A stretch of DNA of 64,000 bases from positions 1 to 64,000 of the forward strand of contig JAUYQP010000057.1 of the NCBI GenBank assembly GCA_030697205.1, read 5' to 3'. The stretch is from Mycobacteriales bacterium (GTDB taxonomy: Bacteria; Actinomycetota; Actinomycetes; Mycobacteriales; SCTD01). Positions 49,751 to 59,263 of the stretch are shown here, piece by piece (position 1 is the first letter of the stretch; every line of letters starts with the position of its first letter). Made by a program: the position numbers and the translations under genes. The notes beneath the pieces are model-generated. The model saw nothing but the letters and a program-made list of their open reading frames with translations. It was not told the DNA's origin and made no database searches.

Positions 49751-50803
49751 CTATCGGCAGACGAGCCCGGCCCCCGTGCGCCGGGTGATCTCTGCCGCGA
49801 TGTGTTCCAGGGACAGGACTGCGTCCGCCAGACCGGCCTCGACGACGAAGCGGGGCATGCCGTAGACGACGCACGACTCGGCGTCCTGGGCGATGACCTG
49901 ACCACCGGCCGCGACGACCGCCTGCGTCCCCTTGTGGCCGTCGGAGCCCATGCCGGTCATCACCACCGACAGCACGCGCGCGCCGTACGCAGCGACCACG
50001 CTGCGGAACAGAGGGTCGGCGGCGGGGCGGCAACTGTTCTCCGGGGGTTCTTCGTTAATGGCCGTGACCACGTGGGCGCCGACCTTCTTGACGACGAGGT
50101 GCTTGCCGCCTGGTGCCACCCAGACCTGCCCGGGAGCCAGCACCTCACCGCCCTGGGCCTCGGCGACGGTGAGCGGGCACAGGCTGTCCAGGCGCTTGGC
50201 GAGCATCCCGGTGAACGCGGGTGGCATGTGCTGCACGATCAGCACGGGTACAGGGAGGTCGGCAGGCAGGCCGGGCAGCATGTCCGCCAGCGCGTTGGGG
50301 CCGCCGGTCGAGACGCCGATCACGACCACGTCGACCGGTCCCAGGGCGGTTCTACGGGCCCGCGGGGTGGCGACCGGCGCTCGCGGACCTGCGAGTGCCT
50401 TGGCGCCCAGGGCTCGGAGCTTGGGCAGTAGCTCGGCACGCAGCAGCTGCAGGCTCTCCTCGCGGCTGGCCGCAGAGGGCTTCTGCACGTAGTCGCTGGC
50501 CCCCCGGGTGAGCGCCTCGATGGTGGCGCTGGCTCCCCGGGAGGTGAGGGTGCTGAACATGACGACCGGGATCTTGCTCCGCCGCTTGCGGAGCTCCAGC
50601 AACGTCGTCAGGCCGTCCATCACGGGCATCTCGACGTCAAGGACTATCAGGTCGGGTGCGATCTCGGTCAGCTTGTCCAGGGCCACTTGCCCGTTCTGGG
50701 CAAACCCCGCGAGCTCGAAGTCCTTCTCGCCACGAAGTGCCTCCGCGACCATGAGGCGCACGACGACGGAGTCGTCGACGGTCATCACCCGCAGCGGCCT
50801 CAC
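49751..50803 (-). CDS. cheB: chemotaxis methylesterase/deamidase CheB
   Basis: Removes receptor methyl groups for adaptation. 350 residues: receiver domain (VMTVDDSVVVRLMV; phospho-Asp in LIVLDVEMPVMDGL; Lys in VQKPSA), linker, and CheB catalytic domain with Ser in VIGVSTGGPNAL, His in LIVQHMPPAF and Asp in VMTGMGSDGHKG. GTG overlaps the stop of the HemA paralogue (GTGA), so the two are translationally coupled. Last gene of the cheA operon. Confidence 0.96.
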   Translation of the reverse strand: MRPLRVMTVDDSVVVRLMVAEALRGEKDFELAGFAQNGQVALDKLTEIAPDLIVLDVEMPVMDGLTTLLELRKRRSKIPVVMFSTLTSRGASATIEALTRGASDYVQKPSAASREESLQLLRAELLPKLRALGAKALAGPRAPVATPRARRTALGPVDVVVIGVSTGGPNALADMLPGLPADLPVPVLIVQHMPPAFTGMLAKRLDSLCPLTVAEAQGGEVLAPGQVWVAPGGKHLVVKKVGAHVVTAINEEPPENSCRPAADPLFRSVVAAYGARVLSVVMTGMGSDGHKGTQAVVAAGGQVIAQDAESCVVYGMPRFVVEAGLADAVLSLEHIAAEITRRTGAGLVCR

Positions 50804-51981
50804 GAGGTCTCCGCCCCGCTGCGCGGCTGAAGGGCGCGCAGCTGCTCGACGTGCGGGTGGAGCAGTGCCTTCATCGACCGGGCGAGCAGGCGCTCGACGT
50901 CGGAGACGTCCAGCGGGGCGCCGTGCAGGGTCGCCGCGGCGTCGGCTGCCCAGGCACCGACCCGCGCGTGCAGCGCCTTGATGGCGGACTCCAGTGGCGC
51001 CCGCTCCTGGTCCATCAGCCAGGCATCGACCTGACCTGCGACGAGCTCCTCCACCTCCGGTACGGCGGCCAGCCGCCGCTGGGTGGCGGCGTCCGCCGCG
51101 GAAGTGAGGGCCTCCAGTGACACGACGGTGGCGCCGGAGGCAGCAACGTCGGGACCGACCTGCGGCGGGAACCCCGCGTCGACGACCAGGACGGGCGTGG
51201 CGCGGTCGGGGAGCGCGGTGACGACGGCCTGTGGTGCGCCGGTGGCGACGACCACCGCGTCAGCGGTCGCGAGCGCCGAGGTGACGTCCGCCCAGGGCGT
51301 CCAGGCCACCTGCAGGTCGCCGGCCACCTCACGGCAGGTGGCGTCGGTGCGGTTGGCCAGCGACAGTCGGCTGTAGCCCGCCTTGCGCAGCGCGCGGACG
51401 GCGAGCCGGCCCGCGCCCCCGGATCCCAGCACCAGGACAGTGCCACCGCGGGGGACACCGCAGCTGCTGATGGCCTCAGCCACGGCGGGCCCGATCCCGG
51501 GGGTGCCGACCGCGATGCTCGTCGTCGCTCGTGCCTGCCGACCGGTGCGCAGGGCCAGCGCCGTTGCCTGGCCCAGAGTCCTCCCGAGCGTGCCAGTGCG
51601 CTCCGAGGCTGTCACCGACGCGCGCAACTGGCCGAGCACCTGGGTGTCGCCCAGGAGCAAGGAGTCCAGACCGCACGCGACCCGGAGCAGATGCCTGAGC
51701 GCCTCGGCATCCTCGTGGTGGTACCAACCGTCGGCGTGCATCCAGGTCGGCGCCACCGGGCAGGTGGAGGCGACCACGGCGGTCCACCGGGCGACGGCGT
51801 CCTCGCCGGCAAGGTAGAACTCCGTCCGGTTGCAGGTGGCCAGCGCGAGCACCTCGAGGTCGGGTGCCTGCCGCGCTGCCGCCGCCAGGAGCTCCCCGAC
51901 CTGCTGGGGAGTCACGGTGGCGGCAGCGCGGGCCTGGGCGCTGGCCGTGCGGTGGCTGATGCCGAGCACGTGCAGGGACAT
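50800..51981 (-). CDS. hemA: glutamyl-tRNA reductase (HemA) paralogue in the chemotaxis operon
   Basis: Full-length GluTR-family protein, 393 residues; the family makes glutamate-1-semialdehyde from glutamyl-tRNA, the first committed step to 5-aminolevulinate and haem. Catalytic Cys50 sits in LATCNRTEFY with Arg52; His97 lies in EALRHLLRVACGLDSLLLGD, where the usual GE is GD. The NADPH domain has VLVLGSGGAGRLAVRALRKA and ANRT, and the C-terminal dimerisation helix is present. ATG 51981 is 3 bases after the receptor stop and the end overlaps cheB. Its place next to a globin-containing receptor suggests local haem-precursor supply; a non-catalytic sensing role is the alternative. A housekeeping hemA is expected elsewhere but cannot be seen here. 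Confidence 0.92.
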   Translation of the reverse strand: MSLHVLGISHRTASAQARAAATVTPQQVGELLAAAARQAPDLEVLALATCNRTEFYLAGEDAVARWTAVVASTCPVAPTWMHADGWYHHEDAEALRHLLRVACGLDSLLLGDTQVLGQLRASVTASERTGTLGRTLGQATALALRTGRQARATTSIAVGTPGIGPAVAEAISSCGVPRGGTVLVLGSGGAGRLAVRALRKAGYSRLSLANRTDATCREVAGDLQVAWTPWADVTSALATADAVVVATGAPQAVVTALPDRATPVLVVDAGFPPQVGPDVAASGATVVSLEALTSAADAATQRRLAAVPEVEELVAGQVDAWLMDQERAPLESAIKALHARVGAWAADAAATLHGAPLDVSDVERLLARSMKALLHPHVEQLRALQPRSGAETS

Positions 51982-51984
51982 GGG

Positions 51985-54975
51985 CTAGACCGTGAACCTG
52001 TCCACGAGGTGCTGCAGGTCCGCAGCCATCTGGCTGAGCTCGCCTGCCGCGCGCTGCGTCTCCTCTGCGCCCTTGGCCGTGCCCTGCGCGGCCGTGGCCA
52101 CGCCGGTGATGTTCGCGGCGATCTCGCTGGACCCATGCGCCGCCTCGCTGACGTTGCGGGCGATCTCGTTGGTCGTGGCGGTCTGCTCCTCGACGGCGCT
52201 GGCGATCGACGACTGGATATCGTTGATCTGGCCGATGATGCTGGAGATCTGCTCGATCGCCTCGACGGCTCCACGGGTGTCGCCCTGGATCGCCTCGATC
52301 TTCTGCGAGATGTCCTCGGTCGCCTTGGCGGTCTCCTTGGCCAGCTCCTTGACCTCGTTGGCAACGACGGCGAAGCCCTTGCCCGCCTCACCGGCACGGG
52401 CGGCCTCGATGGTCGCGTTGAGCGCCAGCAGGTTGGTCTGCTGCGCGATGCTCGTGATGACCTTGATGACCTTGCCGATCTCGGCCGAGCTCTCGCCGAG
52501 CTTGGCAACCGTGGTGTTGGCCGTGCCGGCGACGTCGACGGCCTGACCGGCCACGCGGGCGGCGTCGGCAGCGTTCTTGGCGATCTCGGAGATCGACGCG
52601 GACATCTCCTCCGAGCCACCGGCGACGGTCTGCACGTTGACGTTGACCTGCTCGGCGGCCGCGGACACGACCCCCGCCTGGGTGGCGGTCTCCTCCGCGG
52701 CGCCGCCCATCTGCTGGCTCACGCCGTTGAGCTGCTCCGACGCCGAGGACAGCGACTGGGCGTTGAGGCCGATCGCGCTGATCGATCCGCGCAGCTCGGT
52801 GAAGAAGGTCTGCAGCGCGGTGCCCATCTGGCCGATCGCATCGGTGCCCGACACCGTGACGTCCTGGGTCAGGTCGCCGCCGGCCGCGGCGGTCACGACT
52901 GCGAGGATCGAGTCGACCTTGGCCTGCAGCACTGCTTGCGCGTCCTTCTCCGCGTCGGACTTGTGGATCCGCTCGAGGGCGGACGAGACCATCTGGCCGA
53001 TGTTGCGCAGCGCGTCGAGACGTCCTGTGCTCGGCTCGAGGGTCTCGGTGGCGAAGAAGTCCATGGTGCCGACGACCTCGCCCTGCAGCAGGATCGGGAA
53101 GCACACTCCCGACTTCACGCCGACGCGCTGGGCGACAGGAGCGCGCACGCAGTCAGTCATCTCGCCGATGTCCTTGGTGAAGAACAGGTCGCGCGACTTC
53201 CAGGCGCGTCCTGACAGGCCGACGCCCTCCTTGAAGGTGGCGGCGAGCGTGACCGCGTGGAACTCCGGGCCCGCGTCGCCCGACTCGTTCTGGAACTTCA
53301 GGGCCTGGTCGGCCTGGTCTACTGCCCAGTAGGAGCCGTAGGCCCAGCCGAACGCCGCCCGGACCGTGTCGAGCGCGACCTTGGTCGCCCCCTCGAAGGT
53401 GGTGGCGGTGGCGAGCGCCGCCAGTACCTGGCTGAGGGCGGCGCTGTCGGCAGCCGCCTCCTCGGCGGCCTTTGCCGTGCGGAGCTGCTCGGTGATGACC
53501 TCCCAGGTGGCCATCGCGCCGATGTAGTTGCCGTCCTTGTCGGTGATCGGCGAGACGAGTAGGTCAAGGGTCTCCGGGCCCACCTCGATGTTCGCGCGAC
53601 GGGGCAGGTTCTTGTCGTCGGCGAGGATCCCGCGCTGGTAGGCGGGGCTCTTGTGGAAGATGTCGAGGCTGCTGCCGACGATCGCGTCGGCGTCGATCGG
53701 CAGGTGGCCCTGGAGGGTCTTGAGGGTCTTGAGCGAGGCCGGGTTCATGTAGCGGATGACGAAGTCGCGGTCCGCAAACATCATGTTGGTAGGGCTGTTC
53801 TCCATCATCGAGGAGACGCGGGCCATCTCGTTCTCGAGGTGAAGCTTCTGGGTGATGACCTCCCAGGTGGCCATCGCGCCGATGTAGTTGCCGTCCTTGT
53901 CGCTGATCGGCGAGACCAGCAGGTCGAGGACTTCAGGGCCGACCTGGATGTTGGCGCGGCGCGGCAGGTTCTTGTCGTCGCTCAGGATGCCGCGCTGGTA
54001 GGCGGGGGTCTTGTGGAAGATGTCGAGGCTGCTGCCGACGATCTCGTCGACCGGGACCGGCAGGTGCTCCTGCAGGGTGCGGAGGGTCTCGAGCGAGGTC
54101 GGGTTCATGTAGCGGATCACGAAGTCGCGGTCCGCGAACATCATGTTGGTGGGGCTGTTCTCCATCATCGAGGAGACGCGGGCCATCTCGCTCTCGAGGC
54201 GGAGCTTGTCGGTGATGACCTCCCAGGTGGCCATCGCGCCGATGTGGTTGCCGACCTTGTCGTAGATCGGGGAGACGAGCAGGTCCAGGATCTCGGGGCC
54301 GACCTGGATGTTCGCGCGGCGCGGGAGCTTCTTGTCGTGCGACAGCAGGTCGCGCTGGTACGACGGGGTCTTGTGGAAGATGTCCAGGCTGCTGCCGACG
54401 ATCTCGTCGACCGCAACGGGCAGGTGCTCCTGCAGAGTGCGCAGGGTCTCGAGCGACGCCGGGTTCATGTAGCGGATGACGAAGTCGCGGTCGGCGAACA
54501 TGACGTTCGTCGGGGCGTTCTCGAGCATGGACTCGTAGCGCGCGGCGTCGCCGGCCTCGAACAAGGAGCCGTTGATCTCGTCGATGGTGGTCACGGTTCC
54601 TCCGGTGCTGCTGACGATGGACGGGGCGAGGGGGGCGACAACGGCGACGACGGCGCCGATGGTCGGCTCGTCGATCCCCAGCTCCTGGAGCGTGTCGACG
54701 AGGTGACCGGCGGTCCGGTCGAAGTGGTCCTGTGTGATGGATAGGTCGGCGTGCACCGCGGACATGGAGCGCCCGCGGTAGGGCTTCGGGCCGCCGAGGG
54801 CAGCGGCCAGGAACGTGACCTGCCTCTCCTGCAATCGGCCGAGGTCGACTCCTGTGAAGTACGGCGCAAGCTCGGGGTCGGCCAGCACCTTCTCGTAGAA
54901 GCGCTCCACGGCCAGGATGAGGGCGTCGTCGCCGCCGAGCAGGTCGAAGAGCGTGGTGGTGGTGCTGGTGGTCAT
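51985..54975 (-). CDS. soluble chemoreceptor: truncated haemoglobin-PAS3-GAF-HAMP-MA fusion
   Basis: 996 residues, no membrane segment. Residues 9-125 are a group I truncated haemoglobin: Tyr27 (B10) in [10 protein letters not shown], Leu48 and Gln52 (E7, E11) in [16 protein letters not shown], proximal His75 (F8) in [11 protein letters not shown], as in mycobacterial GlbN. Three 120-residue PAS repeats (about 150-509) share [13 protein letters not shown] and IFHK. A GAF domain (about 520-650), a HAMP-like linker ([19 protein letters not shown]) and a methyl-accepting domain with tip [20 protein letters not shown] follow. ATG 54975 is chosen for AGGAG 6 bases upstream and the globin start. 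No C-terminal CheR-docking pentapeptide. Likely an O2, NO or CO taxis receptor; ligand unproven. Confidence 0.93.
53449..54528 (-). repeat. three tandem 360-base PAS-coding repeats
   Basis: Units 54528-54169, 54168-53809 and 53808-53449 encode near-identical 120-residue PAS domains. Nucleotide identity is high (for example the block TGACCTCCCAGGTGGCCATC recurs every 360 bases), implying recent duplication or gene conversion. Confidence 0.85.
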
Positions 54976-55055
54976 GAGCTGCTCCTGGCTGGTGCGGGCA
55001 GGGGGGATGAGAAGGGGGAGGGGTGGCTGCTCCTCCGACGGGACCGGTCCACGGG

Positions 55056-55505
55056 TCACGTGTCTGCGCGGCGTGGTGAGGGCACGTCGATGGTCTTGGC
55101 GGGGTCAAGCACCAGCAGCAAGTGGCCCTCGAGCTTGTAGACCCCCTCGATGAGGTCCCGAGCCGGGCCGCCGAGGTTCTCCGGGGCGTTCTCGAAGGTC
55201 CGGTCGTCCACCTCGACGACGTCGCCGATCTGGTCCACGAGCAGGCTCACCGCGCCGTCGTCGGTGCGGACGACGACGTTCATCGGGTCGACGCCGTCCT
55301 CGCGGTCGGGCAGGTCCAGCCGCCGGCGCAGGTCGATCGCGGTCACGATCTGACCCCGCAGGTTGATCAGGCCACGGATGACGGGGGAGGCCAGCGGGAC
55401 ACGGACCATGTCCTGGTAGAGCAACACCTCCTGGACCTCGCGGACCCAGATGCCGAAGTACAGATCACCGGCGTAGAAGGTGCAGTACTGCCGCTCGTCG
55501 CTCAT
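55056..55505 (-). CDS. cheW: chemotaxis coupling protein CheW
   Basis: Couples receptor to CheA. 149 residues, single CheW SH3-like domain: [55 protein letters not shown] and [17 protein letters not shown] 55505 is one base after the cheA stop; the receptor start lies 80 bases on. Confidence 0.96.
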
Positions 55506-55506
55506 C

Positions 55507-57849
55507 TCAGGCTCCGATCGCGAGGGGAGCGGGGACGGCGTCGCCGACCACGGCGGCCACGTCGAGCAGGTCGGTCACCCGGCCCTGGAGGATGGCGGAG
55601 CCGAGCATCCCGCGACGGGAGCCGACCCGTTCGATGACCAGGTGCTCCTCGACGATGTCGACGATCTCGTCCACGACCAGCCCGACGTTGCGACCGTCGA
55701 CGCTGTGGACGACCACCTGCAGGACTTCGTGCTCCTCGACGCTCCGCGGCACGCCCAAGGCGTCGCAGACGTGCACGAGCGGCATGATCTGGCCCCGGTA
55801 CTGGACGACGTCACGTCCGCCGCTCCGCTCGACCGAGCTCGCGGGGACCTCCTCGAGGCGGGCGACCAGGGAGAGGGGCACAGCGACCCGGGTGTCGAGC
55901 CCGAGCCGCAGCACCACCAGAGCCTGGGCGGCCTCGTCGCCGGCGGCAGCCGACGCAGCGCTGCTGAGCGCGGCGCGCTCGCGGTTCTCGGAGACGACCT
56001 TCGCCTGCTGGGCAAGGCCGAGGACGTCCAGGATGAGGGCCAGCCGGCCGTCGCCCATGATGGTTGCGCCGGCGAAGGTCGCGATGCCCTTGAGCTGGCG
56101 ACCGAGCGGCTTGACGACGATCTCCTCGGTGTCGCTGACGCCCTCGACCACGAGCCCGAACTGCCGGTCGTCCGCCTGAAGCACGACGATGTTCATCACG
56201 TCACCGGCCTCCTCGCGGTCGCCGAGCCCCAGCTCGTGGCGGAGGTCGACGAGCGGCAGCAGGTTGCCGCGCAGCCGGTAGACGGGCGTGTCGTGGATCA
56301 TCTCCACAGCGGTGCGCGCCTGCTCACCCTCGAGGCGGACCAGCTCCAGCAGGTTGACCTGCGGGATCGCGTAGCGGTCGCCGCCGGTCACGACGATCAG
56401 CGCCGGGATGATCGCGAGGGTCAGGGGGATGCGGATGCGGAGCGTGGTGCCCTGCCCCGGCCGAGGCTGCAGGTCGACGGTTCCACCGATCTTCTCGATG
56501 CTGGTCTTGACCACGTCCATGCCCACACCGCGGCCGGACACGTTGGTGACTGCGGCGGCCGTGCTGAAGCCGGGCAGGAAGATCAGGTTGGCGATCTCGC
56601 GGTCGCTCATGCGGGCGGCCTGGTCGACGCTCAGCAGGTTGCGCTCGACGGCACGGCTGCGCACGCGCTCGAGGTTGATGCCCGCGCCGTCGTCGGTGAT
56701 CTCGATGTTGACCTGGCCACCCTCGTGGAAGGCCCGCAGCAGCAGTGTCCCCTCGGCTGGCTTGCCGGCGGCGACGCGCGCCTCGGGGGACTCGATGCCG
56801 TGGTCCACCGAGTTGCGCACGATGTGAGTGAGCGGGTCCTTGATCGCTTCGATGATGGTCTTGTCGAGCTCGGTCTCCTCGCCCTCCATCTCGATGCGGA
56901 CCTGCTTGCCCAGCTGGTGGGACAGGTCGCGGACGACGCGGGGGAACTTGCTCCACACGGTGCCGACCGGCTGCATGCGCGTCTTCATGACGCCCTCCTG
57001 CAGCTCGCTGGTGACCAGGTTCAGCCGCTGTGAGGTGGTGATGAAGTCCGGCTCGCTGTCGGCCCGAGTGAACTGCAGGACGCGGTTGCGGGCCAGGACG
57101 AGCTCTCCGACGAGGTTCATCAGCTTGTCGAGCAGGGCGACGTCGACGCGGATCGACTGGTCCGAGACGTGGGAGCGGGCCTCGGCCTGCGCGTGCAGAG
57201 CGTCGGCGAGGTCGCGAGGCTGCAGCGTGCCCTCCTCGATGAGGAGCTGCCCCAGCGGCCGCAGGTCCCCGTCCTCCTGCGCCTGGACGGCGCGAGCGAT
57301 GTCGTCGGGCTCAACCTCGTGCCGCGCGAGCAGGATGTCGCCCAGGCGGGCGGTCTCGTCGTCCGTTCCCGTGGCGGCCGGAGCCATGTCGACCGGTGCG
57401 TCGACCGGTGCGCCGGCCGGTGCGCCAGCCGGCGCCGCCACGACCGCGAGCCGTGCCTCAGGGGGGGAGCAGAGCCGGCCGAGCTCGGCGACGAGCGCGC
57501 TGTAGTCGCCGTCGCCCTCCTCGGCGGTCGTCTCGATGGAGGCGAGGATGCCGCGCACCGCGTCGACCATCTGCAGGAGACCGCTGGTGATGTCGGCATC
57601 GAAGGTCAGCTCGTGGTCGCGCAGTTTGCTCAGCAGGTTCTCGCCGACGTGCGCGACCGCCTCGAGCTTGCTGAAGCCCAGGAAGCCGCAGGTGCCCTTG
57701 ATGGTGTGGATCGTGCGGAAGATGCTGGAGAGCGTCGCGGTGTCGTCGGGGGTGCGCTCGAGGGCGACCAGGTCCTGGTCGAGGCGGTCGAGGTTCTCGT
57801 AGGACTCGACCAGGAACTCCTGGACGACCTCGTCGTTGCTCTCGTTCAC
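55507..57849 (-). CDS. cheA: chemotaxis histidine kinase CheA with MshEN-like insertion and two CheW domains
   Basis: 780 residues. HPt domain with phospho-His48 in FRTIHTIKGTCGFLGF. Where a P2 domain is usual, residues about 168-222 carry two tandem 24-residue motifs (RLGDILLARHEVEPDDIARA and PLGQLLIEEGTLQPRDLADA) of the MshEN/GspE-N type, which bind c-di-GMP in some ATPases. P3 dimerisation and P4 kinase follow: N box HIVRNSVDHGIE, G1 DDGAG, G2 SGRGVGMDVV. Two CheW-like domains end the protein (ALIVVTGGDRYAIPQVNLL; VVLRLGLDTRVAVPLSLVAR). GTG 57849 has AAGGTG 5 bases upstream. First gene of cheA-cheW-receptor-hemA-cheB, behind a sigma-28-like promoter. Confidence 0.96.
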   Translation of the reverse strand: MNESNDEVVQEFLVESYENLDRLDQDLVALERTPDDTATLSSIFRTIHTIKGTCGFLGFSKLEAVAHVGENLLSKLRDHELTFDADITSGLLQMVDAVRGILASIETTAEEGDGDYSALVAELGRLCSPPEARLAVVAAPAGAPAGAPVDAPVDMAPAATGTDDETARLGDILLARHEVEPDDIARAVQAQEDGDLRPLGQLLIEEGTLQPRDLADALHAQAEARSHVSDQSIRVDVALLDKLMNLVGELVLARNRVLQFTRADSEPDFITTSQRLNLVTSELQEGVMKTRMQPVGTVWSKFPRVVRDLSHQLGKQVRIEMEGEETELDKTIIEAIKDPLTHIVRNSVDHGIESPEARVAAGKPAEGTLLLRAFHEGGQVNIEITDDGAGINLERVRSRAVERNLLSVDQAARMSDREIANLIFLPGFSTAAAVTNVSGRGVGMDVVKTSIEKIGGTVDLQPRPGQGTTLRIRIPLTLAIIPALIVVTGGDRYAIPQVNLLELVRLEGEQARTAVEMIHDTPVYRLRGNLLPLVDLRHELGLGDREEAGDVMNIVVLQADDRQFGLVVEGVSDTEEIVVKPLGRQLKGIATFAGATIMGDGRLALILDVLGLAQQAKVVSENRERAALSSAASAAAGDEAAQALVVLRLGLDTRVAVPLSLVARLEEVPASSVERSGGRDVVQYRGQIMPLVHVCDALGVPRSVEEHEVLQVVVHSVDGRNVGLVVDEIVDIVEEHLVIERVGSRRGMLGSAILQGRVTDLLDVAAVVGDAVPAPLAIGA

Positions 57850-57900
57850 AGGGCACCTTCGACCAGCGGCAGGCCCCAGCACGTCAGCGTCATGCGCTGC

Positions 57901-57927
57901 TCATCGGGCAGCCGGACGCGTCTGTGA
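57901..57927 (-). promoter_or_regulatory. sigma-28-like promoter of the cheA operon
   Basis: Minus strand: TCAC (57927-57924), 15 bases, CCCGATGA (57908-57901); predicted leader about 45 bases. It would place cheA, cheW, the globin receptor, the HemA paralogue and cheB under flagellar sigma control. The rest of the 179-base gap to cheY shows no second clear match for the opposite strand. Confidence 0.6.
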
Positions 57928-58028
57928 CGCATCAGGCAGAAGATGGGTCACCGGGAGGGGGCGCGTGGCCCACTGGGACTACCCGCGTTTGGTCGGTGCC
58001 GCTCCTCACACGCCCTCGGAGGGGACCG

Positions 58029-58442
58029 ATGTGGTGGGAGCCCGTTCCCGACGAGAGGTTCACCGACGTGCGTGCCTTGGTGCTCGACGACTCCCGCGCC
58101 ATGCGCATGGTGCTCGCCCGCCTGCTCGAGGAGCGCGGCTGGGAGGTCGTCCAGGCAGGCGACGGTGAGGAGGGCCTGCGCGTCCTGGCTGAGGGTCCGA
58201 TGCCGCAGCTGGCGCTGGTCGACTGGAACATGCCTGTGATGAACGGCCTGGACTTCGTCCGCGCCTGTCGCAAGGACGCCGCCTGCGCGGACCTCACGCT
58301 GGTCATGGTGACCACCGAGAGCGAGCACTCGCAGGTCGTGCGGGCCCTGGCGGCCGGGGCGCACGAGTACGTGTTCAAGCCCTTCACCCCCGAGGCGCTC
58401 CTGGGCAAGCTCAGCATGCTCGGCCTTTCCGTGGGGGCGTAG
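58029..58442 (+). CDS. cheY: CheY-type response regulator of the chemotaxis island
   Basis: Receiver-only protein, 137 residues: ALVLDDSRAMRMVLARLLEE, phospho-Asp in LALVDWNMPVMNGLDF, Thr in MVTTES, Lys in VFKPFTPE. ATG 58029 has GGAGGGG 4 bases upstream; GTG 58068 would give a more typical short N-terminus. Divergent from cheA and 2 bases before cheR. A second CheY gene lies at 36100. Confidence 0.93.
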   Translation: MWWEPVPDERFTDVRALVLDDSRAMRMVLARLLEERGWEVVQAGDGEEGLRVLAEGPMPQLALVDWNMPVMNGLDFVRACRKDAACADLTLVMVTTESEHSQVVRALAAGAHEYVFKPFTPEALLGKLSMLGLSVGA

Positions 58443-58444
58443 CC

Positions 58445-59263
58445 GTGCCTCTCGCCCAGAGCGACTTCACCTACATCAGCCAGCTGGTGCGGCAGCGCGC
58501 CGCCATCGTGCTCGAGGTCGGGAAGGAGTACCTCGTGGAGTCGCGGCTCACGCCACTGGCGACGAGCGAGTCGCTCGACGGCATCTCGGGTCTGGTCGCC
58601 GGCCTGCAGGCGGACCGCACCGGCCGCCTCGCGTCGAAGGTCGTCGACGCCATGACGACCAACGAGACCCTGTTCTTCCGCGACGGGCACCCGTTCGACA
58701 CGTTGCGCACCATCGTGTTGCCGGAGCTCATGAAGGCCAGGTCCGCGGCTCGACGGCTCTCCATCTGGTGCGGGGCCTCCTCCAGCGGCCAGGAGCCCTA
58801 CACCCTCGCGATGGTTCTGAAGGAGACGCTGCCGCCCGGGTTCGGCTGCGACCTGCTGGCCACGGACGTGAACGAGGAGATGCTCGAGCGCACCCGCAAG
58901 GGCACGTACAGCCAGCTCGAGGTCAACCGCGGACTGCCGATCACCTCGCTGGTGAAGCACTTCGACAAGGAGGGCACGTCCTGGCAGGTCAAGCCGGAGC
59001 TCCGGTCCATGATCCAGACCAAGAACGTCAACCTCGCTACGTGCTTCCCCTCGATGGGGCCTTTCGACCTGGTGTTCCTGCGCAACGTGCTCATCTACTT
59101 CGACCTGGGTACCAAGCGTGAGGTGCTCCAGCAGGTCCGCAGGGTCCTCCGACCGGACGGCTACCTGTTCCTGGGCGGGGCCGAGACGACGATCAACGTC
59201 GACGACAGCTGGCAGCGGGTCACCCTCGGCCAGTCCACCGCTTACCGCCCCAAGGATCCCTGA
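58445..59263 (+). CDS. cheR: chemotaxis methyltransferase CheR
   Basis: Methylates receptor glutamates from S-adenosylmethionine. 272 residues: helical N-domain with VVDAMTTNETLFFRDGHPFD, SAM domain with LSIWCGASSSGQEPYTLAM, LLATDVNEEMLERTRKG and DLVFLRNVLIYFD. No TPR extension. GTG start two bases after cheY. Confidence 0.96.
   Translation: MPLAQSDFTYISQLVRQRAAIVLEVGKEYLVESRLTPLATSESLDGISGLVAGLQADRTGRLASKVVDAMTTNETLFFRDGHPFDTLRTIVLPELMKARSAARRLSIWCGASSSGQEPYTLAMVLKETLPPGFGCDLLATDVNEEMLERTRKGTYSQLEVNRGLPITSLVKHFDKEGTSWQVKPELRSMIQTKNVNLATCFPSMGPFDLVFLRNVLIYFDLGTKREVLQQVRRVLRPDGYLFLGGAETTINVDDSWQRVTLGQSTAYRPKDP

Follow-up and report, generated by a model that had tools for sequence, protein, structure and literature searches.

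The pairing of a putative haem-based chemoreceptor with a HemA (glutamyl-tRNA reductase, GluTR) paralogue in chemotaxis operons has been retained in no fewer than three bacterial phyla, and it is a real and, it seems, undescribed link of haem metabolism with oxygen-guided swimming. We analyzed the pair in a stretch of 64,000 nucleotides from a Mycobacteriales bacterium (contig JAUYQP010000057.1), called here the window, and in related loci from other genomes. Judged from their sequences, the HemA proteins of these operons are a distinct, long-maintained GluTR subfamily residing in O2-sensing chemotaxis operons.

On the minus strand of the window the genes follow in the order cheA, cheW, receptor, HemA paralogue and cheB (Table 1). 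The HemA paralogue has 393 codons and starts with an ATG at position 51981, separated by 3 nt from the receptor stop at 51985, and its TGA overlaps the GTG of cheB in the tetranucleotide GTGA (50800-50803). The reading frame and the junction coordinates agree with the original prediction of a full-length GluTR-family gene lodged within the chemotaxis operon, and this membership is supported by the gene order, the short gap and the overlap. The codon composition (GC3 0.90, GC2 0.57) is similar to that of the neighboring genes. Since a flagellar cluster (FlhA, FliP, MotB, FliI, FliG, FliF, FlgK) lies on the same contig, the che operon belongs to a motility system. Other hem genes, hemL above all, are absent from the operon.

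Table 1. Genes of the chemotaxis operon in the window and ABC1/UbiB-type kinase genes of related loci.
Feature	Locus	Coordinates	Strand	Evidence
Predicted chemotaxis-operon HemA paralogue, 393 aa; GlutR_N, NADPH domain, spinal and C-terminal helices	window	50800..51981	-	Pfam, AlphaFold2 model, fold match, clade membership
Cytoplasmic-type chemoreceptor: HbN-type truncated globin, three Aer2-type haem-PAS, GAF, HAMP, MCP signalling domain	window	51985..55059	-	Pfam; structure matches
cheB, 4-nt GTGA overlap with HemA paralogue	window	49751..50803	-	Pfam, sequence
cheW	window	55056..55505	-	Pfam
cheA	window	55507..57882	-	Pfam
cheY-like response regulator, divergent	window	57924..58442	+	Pfam
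cheR, divergent	window	58445..59263	+	Pfam
ABC1/UbiB-type kinase gene	L030	11154-12782		
ABC1/UbiB-type kinase gene	L031	11241-12776		
ABC1/UbiB-type kinase gene	L032	11133-12761		
ABC1/UbiB-type kinase gene	L214	7943-9481		
ABC1/UbiB-type kinase gene	L220	1282-2913		
ABC1/UbiB-type kinase gene	L221	910-2445		
ABC1/UbiB-type kinase gene	L245	2198-3757		

The encoded protein is a full-length glutamyl-tRNA reductase homologue. Pfam detected GlutR_N (PF05201) at residues 6-154 (7e-33; 113.9 bits against a gathering threshold of 27) over model positions 1-151 of 151, and a Shikimate_DH-type NADPH domain (7e-14). The dimerisation domain PF00745 (GlutR_dimer) was below Pfam detection in the window copy and in the related loci L030 and L032, and was detected in L031, L033 and L089. 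The AlphaFold2 model (pLDDT 93.8, pTM 0.87) contains a long spinal helix (residues 289-351) plus a C-terminal helix; among solved folds its best match is the M. kandleri GluTR (1gpj). Catalytic Cys50, Arg52 and His97, at positions with 98-100% conservation across 162 canonical-type sequences, are all in place together with T49, N51 and E54, and the NADPH glycine motif reads GSGGAG with both invariant glycines; the residues singled out in the original prediction are thus kept. The catalytic triplet, the NADPH fold, the long spinal helix and, going by the predicted helices, a probable three-part architecture are common to the window protein and to known GluTRs (TIGR01035, PF05201; 1gpj, 4n7r).

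The receptor upstream combines a Bac_globin domain (PF01152) with three PAS domains, GAF, HAMP and MCPsignal. Its globin matches truncated haemoglobin HbN (1idr, E 8e-29), and its PAS domains align, including the FHK motif, with the Aer2 structures 3vol, 4hi4 and 6ceq (P. aeruginosa, V. cholerae). The haem-ligand histidine of Aer2, given as H234 for P. aeruginosa (PMC13401364), and the following distal Trp are both aligned. The receptor is a multi-haem O2-sensor candidate that presumably binds haem at these domains. Its three haem-PAS domains, like the minus-strand location of the HemA paralogue, add to what the original prediction had stated. Within it, three near-identical haem-PAS domains recur at an exact spacing of 120 residues (53440-54546), and this near-identity and regularity look like the result of a recent tandem duplication. 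The receptor scored 351.7 bits against a whole-protein Aer2 cut-off of 1200 (NF041847), with a match confined to the PAS region 172-538. The PAS domains, with the FHK histidine and the Trp, are shared with Aer2-type receptors of P. aeruginosa, V. cholerae and V. vulnificus, and tandem PAS domains are common to the window receptor and Vibrio Aer2. The window, however, adds an N-terminal HbN-type globin and a following GluTR gene, neither of which the consulted passages of the review mention for Aer2. With the HemAT globin-coupled aerotaxis transducers (a name unrelated to the enzyme HemA) the receptor shares a globin and an MCP signalling domain, but its globin is of the truncated HbN/PF01152 type, not the HemAT sensor globin, and it has haem-PAS domains in addition.

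The window's genome encodes a second, canonical hemA (C1:6129-7304), flanked by rex immediately before it and by hemC, hemD and hemB behind. The product of this canonical hemA scores 395 bits with TIGR01035 and is 31% identical to the che-linked HemA. This canonical locus (G000:C1) supplies the second hemA on which the original prediction hinged, and because of it the window's gene is not the housekeeping copy; that it might be the sole hemA is ruled out. At least one other hemA was present in 5 of 5 directly searched genomes with a che-linked HemA, and a second copy was seen incidentally in four more. Among relatives in the window's family, three genomes (G008, G013 and G007) also have a second hemA, unlinked to che (L025, L026 and L027, respectively); as clade candidates these copies were rejected, since the tree placed them with canonical HemAs.

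The pairing is not an isolated oddity: thirteen more loci, in Acidobacteriota and Verrucomicrobiota, carry a che-linked HemA of the same clade. Both checks by which the original prediction could have fallen, a sole hemA in the genome and no co-occurrence of receptor and HemA in relatives, thus left it standing. Scanning of genome contigs gave, among its hits, a HemA homologue behind an Aer2-type receptor in Opitutus (L030), Pedosphaera (L031), an Opitutaceae bacterium (L032), Sulfotelmatobacter (L033) and L089, while profile surveys added G688 and G709 (Opitutales), G1093, G1021 and G899 (class of Sulfotelmatobacter), and G1282, G1213 and G1334 (class of L089). The record of L089 (CALQBJ020000127.1) is titled as a Bifidobacterium breve MAG; this title is evidently wrong, because the genome belongs with L034/G1225 to the Vicinamibacteria (Acidobacteriota). 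The locus flanks define a conserved slot, cheA-cheW-receptor-hemA-[ABC1]-cheY-cheB-cheR, and all 14 clade members lie in a che operon, at its edge or adjoining its ABC1 gene (L220 is a short contig with HemA and ABC1 only, and the contig of L221 begins inside HemA). The receptor-HemA gap is -1 to 65 nt in eight junctions besides the 3 nt of the window; it is larger in L030 and L031, and in L032 two genes, one of them for a globin, separate HemA from the receptor. This operon position speaks for a need of the product at the place and time of O2-receptor synthesis. In a profile search of 396 Actinomycetota genomes, the window's included, no second sequence stood out as a clade member, canonical copies reaching at most 272 bits against 528 for the window; the window is the sole outlier, and the clade is thus not ubiquitous in this phylum.

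In a quick IQ-TREE search, all 14 che-linked HemAs were monophyletic (SH-aLRT 100) with respect to 75 canonical-type HemAs. Eleven positions distinguish the clade: its members have 7-11 of them (the window 10), and 162 other sequences 0-4. The clade-specific residues include Glu to Asp112, G164, K200, W321, E331 and, in the C-terminal motif, Pro to His377. The top-scoring non-members, L034 and L189, proved to be canonical-type, the hemA of L034 lying between ferrochelatase and a hemL-like gene; a third hemA of G027 (L115) also groups with canonical-type HemAs. Compared with known GluTRs, the clade differs by its 11 specific residues, by a weakened dimer-domain score and by its place after a haem receptor gene within a che operon, with a second hemA always present where checked. 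Residues T49, C50, N51, R52, E54, H97, S107 and G111 are kept in 12/12 members with a complete N-terminus, and the NADPH glycines, D268, P272 and R303 in all members. The 5 other members tested all passed the TIGR01035 cut-off of 209.55, with 214-255 bits. Identity between clade members (31-54%) is no lower than that between canonical HemAs of the same genomes (26-41%), which points to comparable constraint. Mirror-tree comparisons of HemA with CheA, CheB and the receptor gave weak and inconsistent correlations (r 0.01 to 0.63) and are given no weight here; part of them is also affected by wrong CheB fragments in L030 and L031. For the clade as a whole, an enzyme is favoured by a catalytic centre that has stayed complete across phylum-level distances, with the active site retained in 12/12 members. 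A spare hemA trapped once in a che operon could also have spread with it with no functional link: a single origin suffices for the tree, and the genes of the operon keep their order as one block. We consider this very unlikely, as the active site stayed intact across phyla while other such operons do without HemA, and as HemA is tied to haem receptors and not to che operons generally. In the window's own family CheA occurs in 4 of 24 genomes; apart from the window's, one complete che operon was seen in this family, that of G022, in which the receptor is of the 4HB transmembrane type and HemA is missing.

Within the clade, the window copy has diverged furthest, and it may be impaired. It has the longest branch in the quick tree, carries R273 to P and S162 to G (S162 is also altered in L032), and scores 180.6 bits with TIGR01035, below the equivalog cut-off. 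It is conceivable, though unlikely, that the clade is enzymatic while this actinobacterial copy, in a receptor-HemA arrangement of the type known from Acidobacteriota and Verrucomicrobiota, is decaying or has shifted in function, no longer fully constrained; its score below the GlutR_dimer cut-off, the lack of an outstanding member in the 395 other sampled Actinomycetota genomes and the family relatives having che without HemA would fit. On the other side, the ORF is intact with a coding-like composition, the catalytic Cys, Arg and His are preserved, and the protein is modeled with high pLDDT.

The link with haem receptors is frequent but optional. At least one Aer2-type PAS with the FHK motif was found in 11 of 11 HemA-linked receptors with a visible sensor region, and a globin in 9 of these 11 loci, fused or, in L032, as a separate gene (none in L214 and L215). 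Among 193 Vicinamibacteria genomes, 8 have a globin/haem-PAS-type receptor; the clade HemA is present in 4 of these 8 and in none of the 185 others (hypergeometric p about 1e-6, with a receptor profile built partly from HemA-linked receptors, those four included). Locus flanks of L245, L246 and L247 show related operons with globin/haem-PAS receptors and no HemA, which rules out that HemA is obligatory for such receptors and indicates that haem loading can generally proceed without it. The genomes G1251 (L245), G1262 (L246) and G1273 have the receptor without HemA, and an ABC1 gene in 2 of the 3; G1332 is truncated by the contig end.

Several further genes accompany these operons. In many of them the gene next after HemA encodes an ABC1/UbiB-type atypical kinase, and in G1251 (L245) and G1262 (L246) this kinase gene lies in the che operon or adjoins the receptor in the absence of HemA. 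A gene for a small membrane protein immediately precedes that of the globin-PAS receptor in loci from two phyla (L031:7284-7652, L245:8759-9220); the L031 copy weakly resembles DUF420, below the cut-off (E 0.0029), and the L245 copy gave no match. The verrucomicrobial operons have in common a protein of 635-769 aa (L030:3-2312, L031:1655-3913, L032:15136-17043), for which no Pfam family was found in the L030 and L031 copies. In Opitutus, a BLUF blue-light sensor gene (L030:13283-13720) lies downstream of the HemA-ABC1 pair.

We give a probability of about 50% to the reading that the paralogue is a GluTR isozyme with intact catalytic ability that is translated along with the O2 receptor and raises the flux of haem precursors. 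It would be made together with a receptor bearing up to four haem sites per subunit and would reduce glutamyl-tRNA to glutamate-1-semialdehyde with NADPH, HemL and all later steps being provided by the housekeeping pathway. Entry into haem synthesis would then increase during assembly of the chemosensory array, outside the controls that act on the housekeeping HemA, and the receptor would be loaded with haem from the extra flux. The formation of ALA through HemA is regarded as rate-limiting, and accumulating haem leads to destabilisation and degradation of canonical HemA (PMC6399207); an isozyme outside this control could therefore be a simple way to top up haem. Arguing against the isozyme are the lack of hemL in the operon, the related operons that do without HemA, the clade-specific changes, which could mean an altered substrate or partner, and the window copy itself, with its lost R273 and S162, its score under the equivalog cut-off and its long branch.

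The main alternative, held more tentatively, is that the GluTR fold has been repurposed for signalling: the protein would bind haem and/or NADPH (or glutamyl-tRNA) and serve the array as a haem-loading chaperone, an adaptor or a metabolic sensor instead of supplying ALA in bulk. Canonical HemA is able to bind haem (PMC6399207), the gene sits directly behind the receptor in most loci (3 nt, -1, -1, 50-65 nt), and the co-occurrence of the ABC1 kinase hints at a wider redox/respiratory sensing set. A signalling or chaperone role stands because of the residues specific to the clade at 11 positions, the absence of hemL and of any other hem gene from the operon, and the similar receptors that lack the gene. 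Such a role, however, does not readily explain why the catalytic Cys, Arg and His and the substrate-side residues are kept in 12/12 members. In its evolutionary form, which we hold equally tentatively, a GluTR branch would have been recruited before the spread over three phyla, coupling tRNA-Glu, NADPH or haem status to the receptor as a signalling or haem-loading subunit. The original prediction had offered haem-precursor supply or repurposing for signalling; the operon membership and catalytic residues behind it stood, and sequence alone does not choose between the two.

No description of a GluTR or hemA paired with chemotaxis, a chemoreceptor, a globin or Aer2 was found in open-access full texts, in line with the suggestion that the pairing is undescribed; this is provisional, since most subscription papers and all preprints were outside the search. 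A hemA branch fixed in O2-sensing che operons over phyla constitutes a defined genetic system, in which an entry enzyme is expressed with its presumed consumer. Such a system lets one test how haem-based sensors get their haem and whether the synthesis of haem is matched to that of the sensors. If the paralogue is instead a true signalling protein, it would represent a GluTR fold with a new function.
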